Source: Nesterenkonia lacusekhoensis (GTDB taxonomy: Bacteria > Actinomycetota > Actinomycetes > Actinomycetales > Micrococcaceae). From it: DNA of 64,000 bases. The stretch is from positions 2,294,001 to 2,358,000 of the forward strand of contig NZ_JAGINX010000001.1 in NCBI RefSeq assembly GCF_017876395.1, read 5' to 3'. The notes beneath the pieces were generated by a model, which saw nothing but the letters and a program-made list of their open reading frames with translations, was not told the origin of the DNA and did not search any database. The translations under genes and the position numbers were made by a program. Positions 30,203 to 58,883 of this stretch are shown piece after piece (position 1 is the stretch's first letter; the number at the start of each line of letters is the position of its first letter).

Positions 30203-31387
30203 TCAGTCCAGGGCTGGGAGGTGAGCGACGGCGTCGTCGTGGTCCAACCCAGTGGCCTCCAGCAGGTCGACCACCATGGTGCGCAGCAGCAGGACCACCG
30301 TCTCTCCCTCCAAGGTGTCCACGCTGAGCCGCGCGGGGTGGAGCCGCCGGGCCACCTGGGCGTAGGCGTCGCGGGCCACACTCATCCGAGGGCTGTCCCC
30401 GGAGCTGGTCTCCGACACGGTCCGGGAGAGCAGCAGCGTGCCCTCGGCCAACTCCTCGAAGACGGTGCCGAGCCGCTCCGCACCGTCGTCGCTCAGCCCC
30501 GTGTGATCCAGCATGCTGACCGTGCGGCGCGAGACCACCCGCATGCTGCGCACCGCCAGATCCAGCTGGGAGGCCACCCGATCCATCGAGCGGACATCGT
30601 GACGCTGATGGCGGGAAGCCAACGAATACCGTGTCAGTTCGCGCGCCGAACGCACCGACGTGGCCACGTCCTCGATCTGGCTCTGCAGCCCGCGGCAACG
30701 GATCAGCGCATGCCAGGCCTGCCGCGAATCGGTGGCGCGCACGGCGGCGCCGGTCTCGCGCAGGGCCTTGATCAGCTCCTCAGCCACCGACTTCAGCTCG
30801 CGGACCGGCTCGCGGCGCAGATCCTTCGGGGTGACCGCGCTGATGAGGATGGCCACCAGACCACCGATCACAGCGTCCATGCTGCGGATCAGCGGACCGC
30901 CGTCCGGGGCAGGCAGCAGCACCACCAGCATGGCCTGCAGGCCCATCTGCATGGTGAACGTGGCACCCGGATCCAGGATGCGGGCCAACATGATGGAGAA
31001 GAAGACGACGGCGAGCGCAGTCCCCAGACCGGTGCCGAAGAAGTAGAGCGTGGTGTCCCCGATGAGGATGCCCAGCGTGCAGCCCAGAGCGATCTCCACC
31101 GTGCGCCGCAGCTGGGGCTCCTTGGAGAAGCCCAGGGCGACCAGCGCAGCGACGGCGGCGAAGATGGGAGCCTCATGACCCAGGATCCGTTCGGCGAAGG
31201 CATAGGCGCCCACGCCGGCCACCGTCATCTGCAGTGCGGGAAGGATGGAGCGCCGGGCACGGACCAGCCCGGCCGACAGTCGATTGACCAGAAACCGGCG
31301 GCCCTCACGCAGGCGGGCGCCGACCCGGCCCACGGCGCGGCTGCGCCGAGAGCTGCTGCGGGCGGAGGTGTCGTCAGGTCCCATCAT
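30203..31387 (-). CDS. FUSC-family (aromatic acid exporter-like) membrane protein
   Basis: 394 residues. A basic N-terminus leads into six hydrophobic segments in the first half (LQMTVAGVGAYAFAERILG, IFAAVAALVALGFS, LGCTLGILIGDTTLYFF, TALAVVFFSIMLARIL). The second half is helical and cytoplasmic. The layout matches half of an FUSC/ArAE (DUF939-like) exporter. RTVEIALGCTLGILIGD is the typical family core. The TGA/ATG overlap at 31384-31387 couples it to the upstream acidic membrane protein. The substrate is unknown. Confidence 0.8.
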   Translation of the reverse strand: MMGPDDTSARSSSRRSRAVGRVGARLREGRRFLVNRLSAGLVRARRSILPALQMTVAGVGAYAFAERILGHEAPIFAAVAALVALGFSKEPQLRRTVEIALGCTLGILIGDTTLYFFGTGLGTALAVVFFSIMLARILDPGATFTMQMGLQAMLVVLLPAPDGGPLIRSMDAVIGGLVAILISAVTPKDLRREPVRELKSVAEELIKALRETGAAVRATDSRQAWHALIRCRGLQSQIEDVATSVRSARELTRYSLASRHQRHDVRSMDRVASQLDLAVRSMRVVSRRTVSMLDHTGLSDDGAERLGTVFEELAEGTLLLSRTVSETSSGDSPRMSVARDAYAQVARRLHPARLSVDTLEGETVVLLLRTMVVDLLEATGLDHDDAVAHLPALD

Positions 31388-32190
31388 GCCTCTGCCAAGG
31401 TGAACTCGTGGGGCTCGGAGGTGATCCCGCCCAGGCTGACGGTCAGCTCATAGGTGCCGGGCTCAAGGTCTGCCGGCTCGCCGCAGTCCGCGGCGGAGTC
31501 CGACCGCGGCCAGGTCAGGTGAGCCCGCTCCGTCTGACCGGGCTCGAAGTCCATCTCCAGGGAGGCGCCGTCGTTGTTCTGGGCTTCGGCGCCGTCTTGG
31601 GCTTCTTCATCTTGAGCTTCTTCGCCCTGGGCTTCTTCGTCTTGAGCTTCTTCGTCCTGAGCTTCTTCGTCCTGTGCGCCCGCGCCGCACTGGGCGGTGT
31701 TGAAGATCTCGCGGCCGTCGGAGGCCACCACGAAGGTCTGCTGCGCGGTGCCCACATCCAGCGTGCAGCCCTCACTGCCGGTGTTCTCGACCTCGAAGAT
31801 CAGCAGCGGCGCCTCGTCCGAGGCGTAGGAGTCGTCACCGGTGTCGGCGGTGAGCGTGACGTCATCGGGGGCGCAGCTGCCGTCCGGGCCCTGCTGCTCA
31901 GCGTCCTGGTCAGCGTCCTGCTGCGAATCTTGCTGCGCGTCCTGCTCGCCGGAGTCGGCGTCGCCGCTCTGGGCGGAGCCGCTCTGGGCGGAGCCGGCGT
32001 CGGCGTCGTCTCCGGACTCTGTCTGCTGGTCCAAGACGGCGTCCTGGGGCTCATCGTCGGTGAACAGGCCGACGATGCTGGAGATGAGCCACCAGAGACC
32101 CAGCAGAGCCAGAACCGCGAGGACGCCGACGGCGATCCGCCGGCGCCGGTACACCGCATCGGACTGCCTCCGAGACCCCTGAGAACTCAT
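31384..32190 (-). CDS. Membrane-anchored acidic protein with EAQDE repeats
   Basis: 268 residues. A basic N-terminus and one membrane segment (IAVGVLAVLALLGLWWLISSIVGLF) are followed by a very acidic extracytoplasmic linker (ESGDDADAGSAQSGSAQS and EQDAQQDSQQDADQDAEQQG). A beta-rich domain follows, with two cysteines near ENTGSEGCTLDVG and FNTAQCGAGA, then about six tandem EAQDE units, and a final WPRSDSAADCGEPADLEPGTYELTVSLGG. No family is recognised with confidence. The beta part resembles DUF4232-like domains. It is translationally coupled to the FUSC gene. Confidence 0.75.
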   Translation of the reverse strand: MSSQGSRRQSDAVYRRRRIAVGVLAVLALLGLWWLISSIVGLFTDDEPQDAVLDQQTESGDDADAGSAQSGSAQSGDADSGEQDAQQDSQQDADQDAEQQGPDGSCAPDDVTLTADTGDDSYASDEAPLLIFEVENTGSEGCTLDVGTAQQTFVVASDGREIFNTAQCGAGAQDEEAQDEEAQDEEAQGEEAQDEEAQDGAEAQNNDGASLEMDFEPGQTERAHLTWPRSDSAADCGEPADLEPGTYELTVSLGGITSEPHEFTLAEA

Positions 32191-32273: not shown

Positions 32274-32356
32274 CGCTGACAGAAATTGTCCCCACCCTGT
32301 TCTCTTGTCCCCGCGAAACTTCCTGGGGATAAGAGAACACAGTGGGGACAATTGCG
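32274..32356 (+). repeat. 83-bp hairpin repeat, copy 1 (left of the AbiEi/DUF559-like gene)
   Basis: Reads CGCTGACAGAA, then arm ATTGTCCCCACCCTGTTCTC TTGTCCCC, a 12-nt loop GCGAAACTTCCT, and the complementary arm ending GTGGGGACAATTGCG. The stem is about 28 bp with few mismatches. It differs from the copy at 33688 at only about four positions. Confidence 0.88.
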
Positions 32357-32474
32357 ACCAGGCTGCGCGACTCGGCTCTGCGCCGCAGTGCACGTCGGCC
32401 GGTGCGGCGCACGGTTATCCACAGGTTCGGCCTGAGCCCCAGCAGAGCGCGCAGGTTTCCGTCAGGCTGAAGCG

Positions 32475-33566
32475 ATGAGCCGCACCAGGACCCCAGCCCC
32501 CTTCGAGTTCCTCGTGGCCGAGCGCCGGCACGACGGCACCCACTCCTCCACCAGGCTCTCCCGGGCCGTCAACCGAGGCGAGCTGCTGCGGATCGAGCGA
32601 GGCATCTACCTGCCGCGGGACACCTGGACCGCGGCGGCGCGCTGGCAGCAGTACCTGATGGCACTGACCGCCCATGCCACGGCTCGTCCCGGCGACGTCT
32701 TCGCCGCGGAGTCGGCCCTGGCAGCACACGGCCTGCCGCTTCTGCAGGTCCCGCGCTCGATCTCCGTCTTCTGCCGCACACGGAACCGCGCCGGGACACG
32801 CCGCCCCGCCCTCTCGACGGGACGAGCCGCTCCCCTACCCCGGGACCAGCTGCCGTTCCCGCTCAGACGCGTCGAACCGCCCCCGGCACGCGGACAGCGA
32901 CGGGATGCCCACCGGGCCGCACTGCGCAGCGGAGAAGAGCAGATCCCACGCACGGCACTGGCCCAAGGACCGAAGGAATGGCTCCCGACGCCGCCCGCAG
33001 GACTCCAGGTGCACCCCCTCCCCCACGCTGTGCTCACCTATGTTCCGCAGATGTCTGCGGCCGACGGGGTGGCCGTCCTCGACGCCGCCCGGCACGGGCA
33101 AGGGCCGCTCAGCGGGCAGGCACTCACCACGGAGGACGTCAAGGCCCACGAGCATCTGCTGCACAGCCGGCGGAGGCAGCGCGCATTCGAGCATCTGTGG
33201 CAGCTCAGCGACCCGGCCGCAGAGTCTCCCGGGGAGTCATGGTCGCGCGTGATCTTCCATGAGTGGGGCCTGCAGGCCCCGCAGCTGCAGAAGGAGTTCC
33301 AGCTGCCCGACGGCGGAACGGCCCGGGTCGACTTCTGGTGGGAAGGCGTTGCGGTGGTCGGCGAATTCGACGGACTCGTCAAATACCGCAGCGACTCCGG
33401 GCCCACCGGCGAAGCCGCCGAAGACGTGGTGGTGCGGGAGAAGGTCCGGGAGGACCGGCTGCGCGCCCTGGGCGTGATCGTCATCCGGTGGACATGGGCC
33501 GATCTCGCCCACCCGCAGCGGCTGATCCGGCGCCTGCGCCGCGCGGGGGTGCCGCTCGCGAGCTGA
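32475..33566 (+). CDS. AbiEi-like/DUF559-type protein (winged helix plus nuclease-like C-terminus)
   Basis: 363 residues. The first ~100 look like the AbiEi/type IV antitoxin domain of actinobacteria (STRLSRAVNRGELLRIERGIY and DVFAAESALAAHGLPLLQVP). The last ~110 look like a DUF559/Vsr-type nuclease: ESWSRVIFHEWGLQAPQLQKEF, ARVDFWWEGVAVVGEFDGLVKY with a D-(x)n-E-x-D-x4-K pattern, and EDRLRALGVIVIRWTWADL. No AbiEii-like toxin gene is next to it. The gene lies between two direct copies of an 83-bp hairpin. A defence or mobile role is possible but unproven. Confidence 0.78.
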   Translation: MSRTRTPAPFEFLVAERRHDGTHSSTRLSRAVNRGELLRIERGIYLPRDTWTAAARWQQYLMALTAHATARPGDVFAAESALAAHGLPLLQVPRSISVFCRTRNRAGTRRPALSTGRAAPLPRDQLPFPLRRVEPPPARGQRRDAHRAALRSGEEQIPRTALAQGPKEWLPTPPAGLQVHPLPHAVLTYVPQMSAADGVAVLDAARHGQGPLSGQALTTEDVKAHEHLLHSRRRQRAFEHLWQLSDPAAESPGESWSRVIFHEWGLQAPQLQKEFQLPDGGTARVDFWWEGVAVVGEFDGLVKYRSDSGPTGEAAEDVVVREKVREDRLRALGVIVIRWTWADLAHPQRLIRRLRRAGVPLAS

Positions 33567-33687
33567 CGCGGAGAGCGAGGGCCGCTCGCGCGCTGACGCC
33601 GGGCTGCGTGAGAGCAGTACAGGGCGGCGTCGGCGCTGAACGTGGGCGGTACAGTGCGGCGTCGGCGTCGGGACTGGTCTTGGCCGC

Positions 33688-33770
33688 CGCTGACAGAAAT
33701 TGTCCCCACCCTGTTCTCTTATCCCCGCGAAACTTCCTGGGGATAAGAGAACAGAGTGGGGACGGTTGCG
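33688..33770 (+). repeat. 83-bp hairpin repeat, copy 2 (right of the AbiEi/DUF559-like gene)
   Basis: Same orientation as copy 1 and 1414 bp away. Arms ATTGTCCCCACCCTGTTCTC TTATCCCC and GGGGATAAGAGAACAGAGTG GGGAC surround loop GCGAAACTTCCT. Both copies share CGCTGACAGAA before the stem. Just upstream (33552-33680) are short GC-rich direct repeats (GCCGCTCGCG and GCGGCGTCGGCG). Confidence 0.88.
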
Positions 33771-38073: not shown

Positions 38074-38143
38074 GATTCGAGCGGGGTTTTGGCCCTTATG
38101 GCCCCGAAAATCACTTCATAAGGGCCGAAACCCCGCTCGAATC
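38074..38143 (-). terminator. 27-bp inverted repeat between arsR and mutY
   Basis: Arms 38074-38100 (GATTCGAGCGGGGTTTTGGC ... TTATG) and 38117-38143 (CATAAGGGCC ... CGAATC) pair over 27 bp with a single G-T wobble. The loop is 16 nt. It lies just after the arsR stop and before the mutY start on the minus strand, so a terminator for arsR is the simplest reading. Its length is unusual and there is no T-tract. Confidence 0.6.
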
Positions 38144-48255: not shown

Positions 48256-49206
48256 CCGACGCATCGCCGAACGCACCGTCCCGACGCCGAGTCCCAGCGT
48301 CGCGGCCAGCGGTCCGGGAGTGATGCGGTCGCCGGCTCGGTACCCGGAGTCCATGATCTCTTTGCGCAGTGCGATGGCGATCTGCTCGGTCACCGAGAGC
48401 TCCACCTTGGGCAGCCATGGGTTCTGCGGGGCGCGGCCCGGCGGCGGGTACTCCGCGACGGCGAGCGCAGCGTCTGAGTCAGAAACTATGGCAGTTTTCT
48501 CCGCCGATTCCTCCCGGGCCCAGCTGACCCCGTGCAGGCCCCTCCCGGCGCGCGCGGCCAGCAGGCGCAGCAACTCCCCGGGTATCGCATCCGCAACGGC
48601 GGCACAGCGGTCCAGCAGAGCCGCCGCCTCTGCGAGGAACTCTTCCCAAGGACGCTCCCCCGGCCGCCACCGGACACTCAGGGATCCAGTCGGCGCACCG
48701 CCCTCGCCCAGATGTGTTGAATTCGCGGGAACTGCACCCTCACGGGGCCCCGTTCCCGAGAATTCAACACGTCGGGCAGCCGGGGCCTCGGGATCCGTCC
48801 ACTCAGCAGCGCCCGAGACCCACAGTGCGGCCATCAGGGCCGCGGCCCGTCGGGAGAACGCCGTCGGACCCACCCTCTGCGAAACCGCTGGAACGGGCTC
48901 GAAGACCAGCCGGATCGACGGGAAGGTCACCTCCATCTCCTTCAGCCGGAGCGGCACCTCCTCGCCAGCAACCGTCACGACGCCGCCCGCTCCCCCGCGG
49001 ATCCGGCGGAAGGCGCGGCTCACCAGGGTCTGACTCAGACCCGTCAGCTCAGCGACGCGCCGCGTGGAGAACTCGCGGGTGCCCACACGAGGCCCGGCGG
49101 TGGCCAGCACACTGGCCACGATGCGATCCGCCGATTCCTGGATCCGCGGACGCCCGCGCTGCACGTCACCAGCACCCTCTGCTGCCATCCGTCCATTCTG
49201 ACTCAT
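47734..49206 (-). CDS. GntR/FCD-type regulator with an extra N-terminal DNA-binding module, putative putA regulator
   Basis: 490 residues from MSQNGRMAAEG (484 from the second Met). The C-terminal ~225 residues are a classic GntR winged helix (LSVTEQIAIALRKEIMDSGYRAGDRITPGPLAATLGLGVGTVRSAM) with an FCD effector domain. The N-terminal ~90 residues contain a second helix-turn-helix (FSTRRVAELTGLSQTLVSRAFRRI), and the middle ~170 residues are unassigned. It is divergent from putA with 62 bp between, so regulation of proline catabolism is likely. Confidence 0.8.
   Translation of the reverse strand: MSQNGRMAAEGAGDVQRGRPRIQESADRIVASVLATAGPRVGTREFSTRRVAELTGLSQTLVSRAFRRIRGGAGGVVTVAGEEVPLRLKEMEVTFPSIRLVFEPVPAVSQRVGPTAFSRRAAALMAALWVSGAAEWTDPEAPAARRVEFSGTGPREGAVPANSTHLGEGGAPTGSLSVRWRPGERPWEEFLAEAAALLDRCAAVADAIPGELLRLLAARAGRGLHGVSWAREESAEKTAIVSDSDAALAVAEYPPPGRAPQNPWLPKVELSVTEQIAIALRKEIMDSGYRAGDRITPGPLAATLGLGVGTVRSAMRRLADDGLLASAEGGFSVPAVTGADVIDLYAARLHVGMVLLRGCATAPRHRLLPVRLALGAVEAAAAEGTLTDVGQADLQFQQELAEAAGLEQSARSFHALTLRVRMFISVLQLDYTPAVDRIVGDDRRILSAVLEGRAEDAVRTWRSKLDHAVRHMSALAPESFDADLWSRLSR
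48714..48770. repeat. 19-bp inverted repeat inside the regulator gene
   Basis: GTGTTGAATTCGCGGGAAC (48714-48732) pairs with GTTCCCGAGAATTCAACAC (48752-48770) with one mismatch and a 19-nt spacer. It lies in the unassigned middle segment of the coding sequence (VEFSGTGPREGAVPANST). Confidence 0.7.
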
Positions 49207-52826: not shown

Positions 52827-52836
52827 GGACTCCGAG

Positions 52837-52883
52837 CAGACGGGCGAGGGGCCGGGCCGCGGGCCTGGCCCCTCGCCCGTCTG
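52837..52883. terminator. Bidirectional terminator between putA and the merR-type gene
   Basis: CAGACGGGCGAGGGGCC (52837-52853) and GGCCCCTCGCCCGTCTG (52867-52883) form a perfect 17-bp stem with a 13-nt GC-rich loop, between two convergent genes. There is no U-tract, as is common in actinobacteria. Confidence 0.85.
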
Positions 52884-52897
52884 CAGGCTCAATCGCC

Positions 52898-56003: not shown

Positions 56004-57443
56004 GGCTCATCGCAGATGAGGGTGTAGTAGTGGCCTGAATCCGCCGGTCTCGAGCAAGCTTCTCGCGATGTAGTGGGTCAGGTTCCTGAAGCCCAGGGCA
56101 GACCCGCGGAGGTGCTCGAGGCGGCCGTTGATGGCCTCCGATGGCCCGTTGGACGTGCCGGGGCGGTCGAAGAACGCGAGGATGTCGGCCGCGCGGCGCT
56201 TGATCGTCCGGCCGAGGGTGATCAGCTCGGGCAGATCCTTGGGGACGCCTGCGGAGAGTTCCGCGATCACGCGTTCGAAGATCTTCCTCCCGCGGGCGGG
56301 ATCCTTGTGTCGGTAGGCGGCGACCGCGCGCTGGTAGACGTCCCAGGTGACCTCGACGGCGACATGATCGGGATGCTGGTCGAACACTGCCTCGAGCGTC
56401 GCGAGTTGGTGCTGCTTCAACAGTCCGAGCCCCGTCCTGAGCAGACGGCGGCAGCCGTAGAGCGGGTCGCCGGTCCGGCCGCGATGCCCGAGAGTCTCCT
56501 GCTGGACGCGCTGCCTGGTCTTGTCGAGCGCATCGCCGAACAGCTGAACGACATGGAACGGATCCATCACGGCCGTCGCGTCGGGGATCTCTTCGCCGGC
56601 GGCGGTCTTGTAGCCGGTGAAGCCGTCCATCGCGACGACATCGATGCCATCGCGCCAGGCCTTGGGGCGTCCGGCGAGCCAGGTCTTGAAGGCGTGCTTC
56701 GAGCGGCCTGGGACCATGTCGAGCAGCCGGGCGGGGCCGGTCTTCTCGCGGGCCGGGGTGAGGTCGATGATCACGGTCACGTATTTGTCGCCGAGGCGCG
56801 TGTGGCGCCAGACGTGTTCGTCGACGCCGATCGTGGTCACCCCGTCGAACCTGCGGGGGTTGTCGATCAGGACGCGCCGGCCCTCGACGAGCACGGCGTC
56901 GTTGGCGGCATGCCAGGACACGTCGAGGGACTCTGCGACCCGCGCGACGGGCAGGTGCTGGCAGACGACAGCTTCCAGGGCCCACCGGATCGCGGCGCGA
57001 GTGAGTTTCCCCCGCGGCTCGGCCGCCGCCGTGGTGTCCTCGCGCCAGATCGTCCCACAGCCGGAGCATGCGAAGCGGCGGACGCGGACGAGGAGCGTCG
57101 TCGGCCGCCAACCCAGCGGGACATGCGCCAGCCGGCGGGCCTGTGTCCCGCGGGCGATGCCTTCGGCGCCGCAACCGCGACAGAACGGGTCGCGGTCAGT
57201 GACGCGGCATTCGAGTACCGCCTTGTCAGGATCGATCTGCTGGCCCGTGACGGTGAGGCCGTGCTCATCGAGGAGGCAGAACGCAGACAGGTCAGGGGCG
57301 GCGAAGGTACCGTGGAACATCGTCGAGGTCTTCCTGATGGACAGCGTGAGAACTTCCATCATCGGAAGGCCTCGACCTCGTCTCCGCGACCGCCACGCCG
57401 CCGGCTCGTCAACCGACGGCTACACCCTCATCCGCGAAGAGCC
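56004..57443 (-). mobile_element. ISL3-family insertion sequence A
   Basis: 1440 bp. The ends read inward GGCTCATCGCAGATGAGGGT and GGCTCTTCGCGGATGAGGGT. The transposase differs clearly from IS B and from copies 1 and 2, so it is a separate ISL3 species. Confidence 0.9.
56007..57320 (-). CDS. ISL3-family transposase (IS A)
   Basis: About 437 residues from MFHGTFAAPDLSAFC (an upstream Met at 57362 is possible). The zinc-binding CRGCGAEG and CSGCGTIW pairs precede a helix-turn-helix, and the DDE_Tnp_ISL3 core follows with TIGVDEHVWRHTRLGDKYVT, VVAMDGFTGYKTAAGEEI and GTSNGPSEAINGRLEHLRG. The reading frame is complete, so the element could be active and could also act on related ISL3 ends. Confidence 0.92.
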   Translation of the reverse strand: MFHGTFAAPDLSAFCLLDEHGLTVTGQQIDPDKAVLECRVTDRDPFCRGCGAEGIARGTQARRLAHVPLGWRPTTLLVRVRRFACSGCGTIWREDTTAAAEPRGKLTRAAIRWALEAVVCQHLPVARVAESLDVSWHAANDAVLVEGRRVLIDNPRRFDGVTTIGVDEHVWRHTRLGDKYVTVIIDLTPAREKTGPARLLDMVPGRSKHAFKTWLAGRPKAWRDGIDVVAMDGFTGYKTAAGEEIPDATAVMDPFHVVQLFGDALDKTRQRVQQETLGHRGRTGDPLYGCRRLLRTGLGLLKQHQLATLEAVFDQHPDHVAVEVTWDVYQRAVAAYRHKDPARGRKIFERVIAELSAGVPKDLPELITLGRTIKRRAADILAFFDRPGTSNGPSEAINGRLEHLRGSALGFRNLTHYIARSLLETGGFRPLLHPHLR

Positions 57444-57448
57444 TATGC

Positions 57449-58883
57449 GGCTCATCGCAGATGAGGGTGTAGCAACGGTCTGAAGCCTCCAGTGTCTAGC
57501 AGCGATCTCGCGATGTAGTGGGCGAGATTTCTGAACCCCAGTGCAGTGCCGCGCAGGTGCTCGAGCCTGCCGTTGATCGCTTCTGTAGGCCCGTTAGAAG
57601 TGCCAGGCCTCTCGAAGTAAGCCAGGATGTCCGCAGCCCGGCGATTGAAGGTCCTCCCCAGGCTGATCAACTCCTGCAATCGGCGGGGCACCGCCCGGCG
57701 CAGTGAAGCGATGACAGCCTCGAGCTGTTTCTTGCCCTCGCTCTTCGAAGGGTTGCGGTAAGCGGCCACGATCTTCTGATAGATCCTCCAGGTCGCCTCG
57801 ACCTCGACGTGCTCATCCACAGCGAAGACTCCGGCCAGTCGACTGTGTTGCTTGCCGGTGAGCAGGTCAGCGCCGGTCCGAAGCGTCCTCCGGGTTCCGT
57901 AGAGAGGATCACCAGAGCGTCCCCGGTGTCCCAGGGTGTCTTGTTGGACCCGCTGCCGGCACCGATCGAGTGCATCCCCGGCCAGGGCGACGACGTGGAA
58001 GGGGTCCATCACCGCGGTCGCCTGCGGGAGTTCCTCGGCGGCGGCGGTCTTGAACCCGGTGAACCCGTCCATGGCCACCACCTCGATCCCGTCCCGGAAC
58101 TGCTTGTTCTGGGCGTCGAGCCAGGTCTTGAACACCTGCTTCGAACGCCCGTCGACCATGTCCAGCAGCCGGGCCGGCCCGGTGCCGTTGCGCACCGGGG
58201 TCAGATCGATGATGACCGTGACGAAGTGACTGCCGCGGCCGGTGTGGCGCCAGCAGTGCTCATCAACGCCTAAGACCCTGACCCCGTCGAATCGGGCTGG
58301 GTCATTGATCAACAGTTTCGTTCCGGCGGTGAGCACGGCGTCATTGACCGTGTGCCAGGCGGCGCCGAGGCCGGCCGCGATCCGGGTGACTGACATGCGG
58401 TCGATCACCAATGATTTCAGCGCCCAGAGCACCGCGTGGCAGCTGAGTTTCGCTCGTGGTGCCGCGGTGCAGCTGGTGTCTTGGCGCCAGACTCGGGCGC
58501 AGTCAGCGCACCGGTATCGGCGCACTCGAACCACGAGTGTGGTGGGACGCCAGCCCAAGGGCACGTGCGCCAACTGGCGCACGACGGTGCCGATGGAGAC
58601 GCCCTCGGCGCCGCAGTGCCGGCACCATGGGTCGTCTTCGCGGACGCGGCATTCCAACACGGCTCGGTGTTCTTCGAGGCGTTGGCCGGTGATGGTGAGT
58701 CCGAGCTGGTCGACCAGGCAGAAACTATCGATGTCAGGGGTGGTGAAAGTAGGCTTGGCCACGTCGAGGTCTTTCTAGATGGGCAGTGTGAGAACTTCCA
58801 TCTTCGGAAGGCCTCGACGTCTATCTGCACACCGCCACGCCACTACTTCCCCGCAATTGCTACACCCTCAAATGCGAAGAGCC
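57449..58883 (-). mobile_element. ISL3-family insertion sequence B (intact relative of copy 1)
   Basis: 1435 bp. The ends read inward GGCTCATCGCAGATGAGGGT and GGCTCTTCGCATTTGAGGGT. The interior is almost identical to ISL3 copy 1. Only the transposase-upstream end region differs, from GGGTGTAGCAATTGCGGGGA onward, where copy 1 carries copy-2-type sequence. Confidence 0.92.
57452..58762 (-). CDS. ISL3-family transposase (IS B)
   Basis: 436 residues from a GTG start (AKPTFTTPDIDSFCLVDQLG). Zinc-binding CRHCGAEG and RCADCARVW lie near the N-terminus. The catalytic core carries VLGVDEHCWRHTGRGSHFVT, VAMDGFTGFK, an HRGRSGDPLYGTRRTLRTG segment and GTSNGPTEAINGRLEHLRG. The frame is intact and provides the reference for the two disrupted copies. 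It is likely the source of copy 1 and possibly functional. Confidence 0.93.
   Translation of the reverse strand: MAKPTFTTPDIDSFCLVDQLGLTITGQRLEEHRAVLECRVREDDPWCRHCGAEGVSIGTVVRQLAHVPLGWRPTTLVVRVRRYRCADCARVWRQDTSCTAAPRAKLSCHAVLWALKSLVIDRMSVTRIAAGLGAAWHTVNDAVLTAGTKLLINDPARFDGVRVLGVDEHCWRHTGRGSHFVTVIIDLTPVRNGTGPARLLDMVDGRSKQVFKTWLDAQNKQFRDGIEVVAMDGFTGFKTAAAEELPQATAVMDPFHVVALAGDALDRCRQRVQQDTLGHRGRSGDPLYGTRRTLRTGADLLTGKQHSRLAGVFAVDEHVEVEATWRIYQKIVAAYRNPSKSEGKKQLEAVIASLRRAVPRRLQELISLGRTFNRRAADILAYFERPGTSNGPTEAINGRLEHLRGTALGFRNLAHYIARSLLDTGGFRPLLHPHLR

Follow-up and report, generated by a model that had tools for sequence, protein, structure and literature searches.

A stretch of 64,000 nt from Nesterenkonia lacusekhoensis (assembly GCF_017876395.1, contig NZ_JAGINX010000001.1, positions 2,294,001 to 2,358,000), here called the window, carries a gene for an AbiEi-like protein with a predicted nuclease domain that is bounded on both sides by palindromic repeats (Table 1). 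The two 83-bp repeats lie in direct orientation, 1414 bp apart, with 95% identity over 83 bp, and enclose one gene only, as the initial annotation had described. The left repeat folds into a hairpin of 26 pairs and the right into one of 24 pairs, with the loop GCGAAACTTCCT in both; their Rfam matches, to miRNA families under the gathering scores, were discarded as chance. No BLAST match to the repeat was found in this genome outside its two window sites. A scan of the window for four 7-mers (motif, 19-nt step, motif, mirror image) returned two sites, which are the two repeats, and none at steps of 17, 18, 20 or 21 nt; the same scan of control stretches of related genomes, 400 kb in all, gave four sites at step 19 and 0-3 at other steps. 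G-labels denote genomes (G000, the source of the window; G247, a close relative) and L-labels denote loci.

Table 1. Features of the palindrome-bounded unit (window coordinates)
Feature	Position	Strand	Details
Left (upstream) palindromic repeat	32274..32356	.	stem 32284-32353; four-motif array 32287-32350; TGTCCCC at 32287, again 19 nt on, then mirrored
TTATCCACA element	32415..32423	+	60 nt before the start codon
CAGGCT	32463..32468	+	possible -10 element of a leaderless promoter
Gene for AbiEi-Vsr-type nuclease protein	32475..33566	+	363 amino acids
AbiEi-like part	32493..33212	+	amino acids 7-246
Nuclease domain (predicted)	33213..33554	+	amino acids 247-360; E254, D286, E297, D299, K303
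Right (downstream) palindromic repeat	33688..33770	.	stem 33702-33763; four-motif array 33703-33762

The assignment of the N-terminal part to AbiEi, already made from the sequence alone, is borne out by a PADLOC AbiEi match (E 5.9e-8) and by an AbiEi fold with an N-terminal winged helix. Structure modelling suggests that this part is joined to a nuclease domain of the Vsr/I-Bth0305I type, with a Vsr-like PD-(D/E)XK fold and the conserved acidic residues expected of Vsr and EDxHD enzymes; the putative catalytic residues are practically invariant. This likeness comes from a VIA-align list, a second look at Foldseek's ranking, and families outside that ranking may also resemble it. The initial annotation had called the segment DUF559/Vsr-like, which the fold upholds and the sequence backs weakly: the window protein has no Pfam match to DUF559 (PF04480) up to E 1, two of 100 relatives match, with a best E of 0.0044, and sequence searches against solved structures gave no match. 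At least 845 related proteins exist, named 'hypothetical' or 'AbiEi' in most naming sources.

The layout recurs well beyond the window. A protein search gave matches in 168 of the 245 genomes of the bacterial family, and 90 family loci, mostly from the top of the match list, were examined. Hairpins scoring at least 16 were found upstream at 40, downstream at 41 and on both sides at 21 of these loci; the corresponding counts for 243 crudely called control genes were 13, 15 and 0. In a test independent of folding, the upstream and downstream regions of one locus match each other above 98% of cross-locus pairs in 62/90. Phylum-wide, the search found matches at E 1e-10 in 67 of 396 genomes, and 20 of 29 loci, one of which (L190) comes from the window's own family, exceed their own 98% null for a matching repeat on both sides. 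The palindrome sequence is private to each locus, and the design is common to the loci. A DNA search of the 245 genomes with the window hairpin found relatives in one other genome, a low yield that follows from this privacy. Palindrome similarity hardly tracks protein identity overall (Spearman 0.06-0.07); the two go together strongly only for proteins more than about 60% identical, whose loci are mostly at the same place, so this correlation was not used as proof. Convergent neighbours flank 31/90 units and 60/250 control genes (crude gene calls).

The common design is a motif repeated at a period of 19 nt. Runs of at least five identical bases at lag 19 occur in 39 of 84 palindrome arms (one per locus), against 1.9 in shuffles and 0-8 at lags 8-18 and 20-29, and 35 of 77 arms keep them after removal of similar arms. 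Among 33 hairpins from control stretches, lag 19 appears in three and each other lag from 15 to 24 in 0-2. A strict four-copy array is present at lag 19 in 28 of 119 loci, compared with 0-2 at six other lags and 0/238 shuffles. Since such arrays include that of locus L009, where no hairpin was detected, what stays fixed in the design is how the motifs are arranged; a fully paired stem is frequent but not universal. One perfect four-copy array (GAGTTCG, 28/28) was also seen in a control stretch of G091 (L105, about 1960) and is perhaps a solo palindrome of another unit.

Pairing itself is supported at one conserved site, where orthologous units of six species supply 12 palindromes that align without gaps. 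Eight of 25 pairs change on both sides, with 21 double-changed cells against 8.1 (standard deviation 3.0) in shuffles, and the covariation score of 0.239, against 0.137, was reached by 0/500 shuffles. The two palindromes of one unit in G042 differ from each other in one segment, of which both versions are self-complementary, and this again speaks for pairing. Upstream and downstream hairpins compared at 44 loci gave 37 compensatory changes, 27 changes to G-T, 128 broken and 896 unchanged pairs, counts that carry no weight because both hairpins had been selected for pairing.

For two units of the genus the palindrome also occurs as scattered solo copies. One is a second unit of G000 (L052), whose gene has diverged from that of G247 with a non-synonymous rate (dN) of 0.045 and a synonymous rate (dS) of 0.318, a ratio of 0.143, and whose outer palindrome arms are identical between the two genomes while the surrounding intergenic DNA differs. 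The L052 pattern has five matches in G000, seven in G247 and none in the other 28 genus genomes, and the backward pattern never matches. With BLAST, the family occupies 12 places in G000 and 17 in G247; G209 has a single weak match, and the remaining 27 genomes have none. Two copies per genome flank the unit, leaving 10 solo copies in G000 and 15 in G247. By flank comparison, nine of the ten G000 copies have a G247 counterpart and six of the 15 G247 copies have none in G000; one of these six is missing at that place in each of 11 other genomes compared. The weak match in G209 (L310, about 700-773) is a well-paired palindrome of the same design, perhaps one that goes with a different unit of G209.

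A smaller family, GTCCCC, includes the window's palindromes. It has six copies in G153, another species, with two flanking its unit and four solo, three palindromic copies in G245, and in G000 the window's two alone; other matches to the pattern look like chance, the backward control giving 1-2 matches in 7/30 genomes. Five unit proteins were compared with the flanks (about 0.6-2.5 kb per side) of 33 solo places, 26 of the L052 family including G209 and seven of the GTCCCC family, and no unit homologue was found there. The initial annotation had reasoned that a hairpin scattered widely without the gene would break the link between the two. Scattered copies do exist; in the L052 family they are confined, bar the G209 match, to the two of 30 genus genomes in which a matching unit was found.

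Comparison of sites with and without a unit was possible for a third unit (L049), whose flanks were matched in 29 of 30 genus genomes, one being without a match. A homologue occupies the site in eight genomes, G000 included. Nine genomes have 3-93 bp between the flanks and lack the unit; in nine others the site is taken up by different sequence in which no homologue appears at E 1e-3, and in two the flanks lie apart. G247 carries a shortened copy with no hairpin above 11.5. The single hairpin that had been anticipated at empty sites is not what these nine sites hold: no array of at least 24 was found in them, and no hairpin of at least 10 except a weak one (12) in G178. Because the layout recurs and the empty sites lack an array, the reading of hairpin, gene and hairpin as one unit is strongly supported. 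For the window unit itself, G247 was considered as a clean empty site and rejected. With about 89% identity nearby, the corresponding stretch there (L125, 5691-7917) encodes a carbon-nitrogen hydrolase plus a divergent AraC-type regulator and has no hairpin, so no clean insertion is demonstrated.

Units at one place can differ in orientation and in sequence. Fifty-three of the 90 loci form 13 groups with both flanks shared, and five of these 13 groups hold units in both orientations. Among 182 same-place pairs, a non-independent set drawn from few sites, N-terminal identity falls below 0.36 in 54 (two owing to a truncated gene); in these the median C-terminal identity of 0.44 is no higher than that of different-place pairs (0.45). 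The figures suggest that units may have been replaced, may have arrived repeatedly at one spot, or may diverge very fast.

A promoter-like block lies between the upstream palindrome and the gene. Homologues conserve an A at -11 and a T at -7. The motif TTNTCCACA (at most one mismatch) is found 58-62 nt before an in-frame start in 67/90 family loci, 48 of them exact, if the choice of start codon is left free; when it is set in advance, TTNTCCACA with a G or T after it lies at -66 to -54 in 37/90 loci and 0/322 control genes. The exact motif occurs in none of the 29 phylum-wide loci and thus stands outside the general design. The motif, like TTATCCACA in the window, resembles a DnaA box, a likeness that makes DnaA no more than a conceivable factor for it.

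The unit, its cognate palindromes and the 19-nt design are very well supported, close to certainty, and the protein likely reads its palindromes. The anatomy favours an element that is mobile or a protein that would cut or repress at the hairpins. The earlier interpretation is partly supported. The best single account, which we would back about as readily as doubt, is that the protein cuts at its palindromes and thereby moves or maintains the element. The unit would then be a nuclease together with its own DNA targets, comparable to a homing element or to a REPtron, in which a repetitive extragenic palindromic (REP) sequence is paired with its enzyme, here with an unrelated one. In such a mechanism, the AbiEi-type winged helix would read the motif and several protomers would assemble on the four copies. 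The Vsr/I-Bth0305I-type domain might then nick or cut in the palindrome or close to it, perhaps in its extruded hairpin form. As such breaks are repaired, the segment between the palindromes could be copied, lost or inverted and solo palindromes could arise, and the unit and its palindromes would be kept as a selfish element akin to REPtrons or homing systems.

A number of observations weigh against this account. Neither a target-site duplication nor a recent insertion came to light. The window protein's family is unlike typical mobile genes: the phage set contained no homologue, none was confirmed in viral contigs, and plasmids yielded just two distant homologues (NZ_LR134465.1 from Tsukamurella and NZ_OY725717.1 from Collinsella). 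The shared places of the G000 and G247 solo copies indicate that most are old and stable, and no solo copy of the window's own palindrome was found as far as searched. The decayed L049 copy in G247 keeps one array in part (25/28). The 90 family loci are not independent, since orthologues are included, some nearly identical. The initial annotation had held that a gene usually occurring without hairpins would undo the link; this is not the case, though 28/90 loci fail the upstream/downstream repeat test. In 27 dispersed palindromes of a family other than that of the conserved site with covariation, 38 double-changed cells compare with 30.6 (standard deviation 5.1) in shuffles and the covariation score was reached by 132/500 shuffles, no excess, so a fully folded hairpin is unnecessary for that family.

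The main rival, which we regard as possible rather than probable, is an autoregulated defence nuclease: the palindromes would be operators, the AbiEi-type domain repressing its own promoter from the upstream copy, perhaps with looping to the downstream copy, the solo copies would be further binding sites, and the nuclease would target foreign or damaged DNA instead of the palindromes. PMC7319586 reports repression of their own operons by AbiEi and the AbiEi-like antitoxin Rv2827c, which recognise two and four 23-bp inverted repeats, respectively, within their promoters. The palindrome indeed stands just upstream of the conserved promoter-like block, locus-specific motifs would suit paralogous repressors avoiding cross-talk, and the family in which pairing is unnecessary also fits. 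However, the upstream palindrome in the bacterial family usually stops some 60-130 nt short of the start, outside the promoter-like block rather than overlapping it, and autoregulation alone leaves the downstream copy (62/90 loci) and the solo copies unexplained.

Solo palindromes could instead be scars, left when recombination between a unit's two palindromes deletes the gene and spares one copy, without any transposition or spread by the nuclease. Most such units do have two similar palindromes at their borders, and inverted units at the same place are what recombination between palindromes would give; yet about ten former units of one specificity would be needed in G000 and fifteen in G247, and the nine empty sites retain no array, so we consider this improbable. 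Less credible still is that the palindromes are plain bidirectional terminators or insulators that have accumulated around a solitary gene, with no cognate link to the protein: at one G247 solo site the convergent gene pair encloses a different GC-rich hairpin in eight of 11 other genomes and yet another in G000, and three of the 33 control hairpins show the 19-nt lag, but terminators would neither match across one gene while differing between loci nor show an exact 19-nt period, and the window yielded no terminator-like sites with T tracts.

The four nearest neighbours of the window gene, two per side, are by Pfam a FUSC_2 protein, a protein without a match, a cytosine/purine permease and an ATPase that we take to be RadA-like, a name of our own. 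Three of them match no PADLOC model; the RadA-like one has a mad8 match (E 8e-7) that covers 49 residues of its ATPase region. None of the four matches an AbiE toxin model, in agreement with the earlier remark that a toxin partner is lacking. The neighbouring gene at 31384-32190 contains 15-nt tandem repeats (31593-31692) that encode an acidic repeat. The top-scoring hairpin of the window lies elsewhere, at 38074-38143, with 26 pairs; its G247 counterpart (L125, about 1319-1397) is shorter and seems to lack the hairpin. Further long hairpins at 48706-48777, 57419-57473 and 52836-52884 (scores 18-20) fall outside 19-nt arrays. Directly 3' of the permease gene, G256, G107 and G042 share another hairpin (TTGAGGGGCGG...; L118 3042-3115, L119 1404-1475 and L123 2828-2897), beside which tblastn found no homologue of the window protein in the fetched flank.

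These data point to an unrecognised kind of enzyme-and-target element whose gene is widespread and unstudied. The at least 845 related proteins could each gain a predicted DNA target readable from the flanks, making specificity testable locus by locus. If the proteins do cut at their palindromes, Actinomycetota would possess REP-like elements of their own, whose enzyme is no relative of the HUH transposases, and the known site-specific nucleases would be joined by a new set. We tentatively propose, with slightly more doubt than confidence, an unnamed class of selfish elements across Actinomycetota in which an AbiEi-Vsr fusion nuclease reads a four-motif 19-nt palindrome, bounds its own gene with two, spreads solo palindromes and changes specificity from unit to unit, an independent invention of the REPtron principle.

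Among the matches listed for the open PMC library, which leaves out subscription papers and preprints, no paper tied such a protein to flanking palindromes by title or abstract. A Mycobacterium tuberculosis protein that combines AbiEi and Vsr-like regions goes under the label conserved hypothetical (PMC13366182), and the Caulobacter DUF559 protein VsrA is tied to DNA damage in cells without a methyltransferase (PMC12907096). The closest known system is the REPtron (TnpA-REP/RAYT with REP palindromes), whose enzyme and palindrome are reported to co-evolve (PMC8266576). Both have one nuclease-type gene beside its own palindromes and more palindromes scattered between genes, a combination found for the second unit of G000 and G247 and for G153; the window's unit has two flanking copies only. 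Unlike the HUH enzyme of the REPtron, the protein here models as AbiEi plus Vsr-type, and no HUH/Y1 transposase Pfam match was found in the window protein or 99 relatives. The palindromes here are also longer, with a 19-nt motif period, number 12 and 17 in the two counted genomes against hundreds, and differ between the several units of one genome. With AbiEi antitoxins of type IV toxin-antitoxin systems, the N-terminal two thirds share fold and family models, and AbiEi proteins are reported to bind inverted repeats; unlike them, the protein here carries a fused nuclease domain, has no nucleotidyltransferase toxin gene among its two neighbours per side, and has palindromes on both sides and elsewhere. 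Compared with Vsr and the EDxHD homing endonuclease I-Bth0305I, the predicted domain is attached to an AbiEi part and bounded by palindromes. The Ssn GIY-YIG single-strand nucleases resemble the unit as proposed here in being site-specific, with a repeat target near their gene, and differ from it in nuclease fold.
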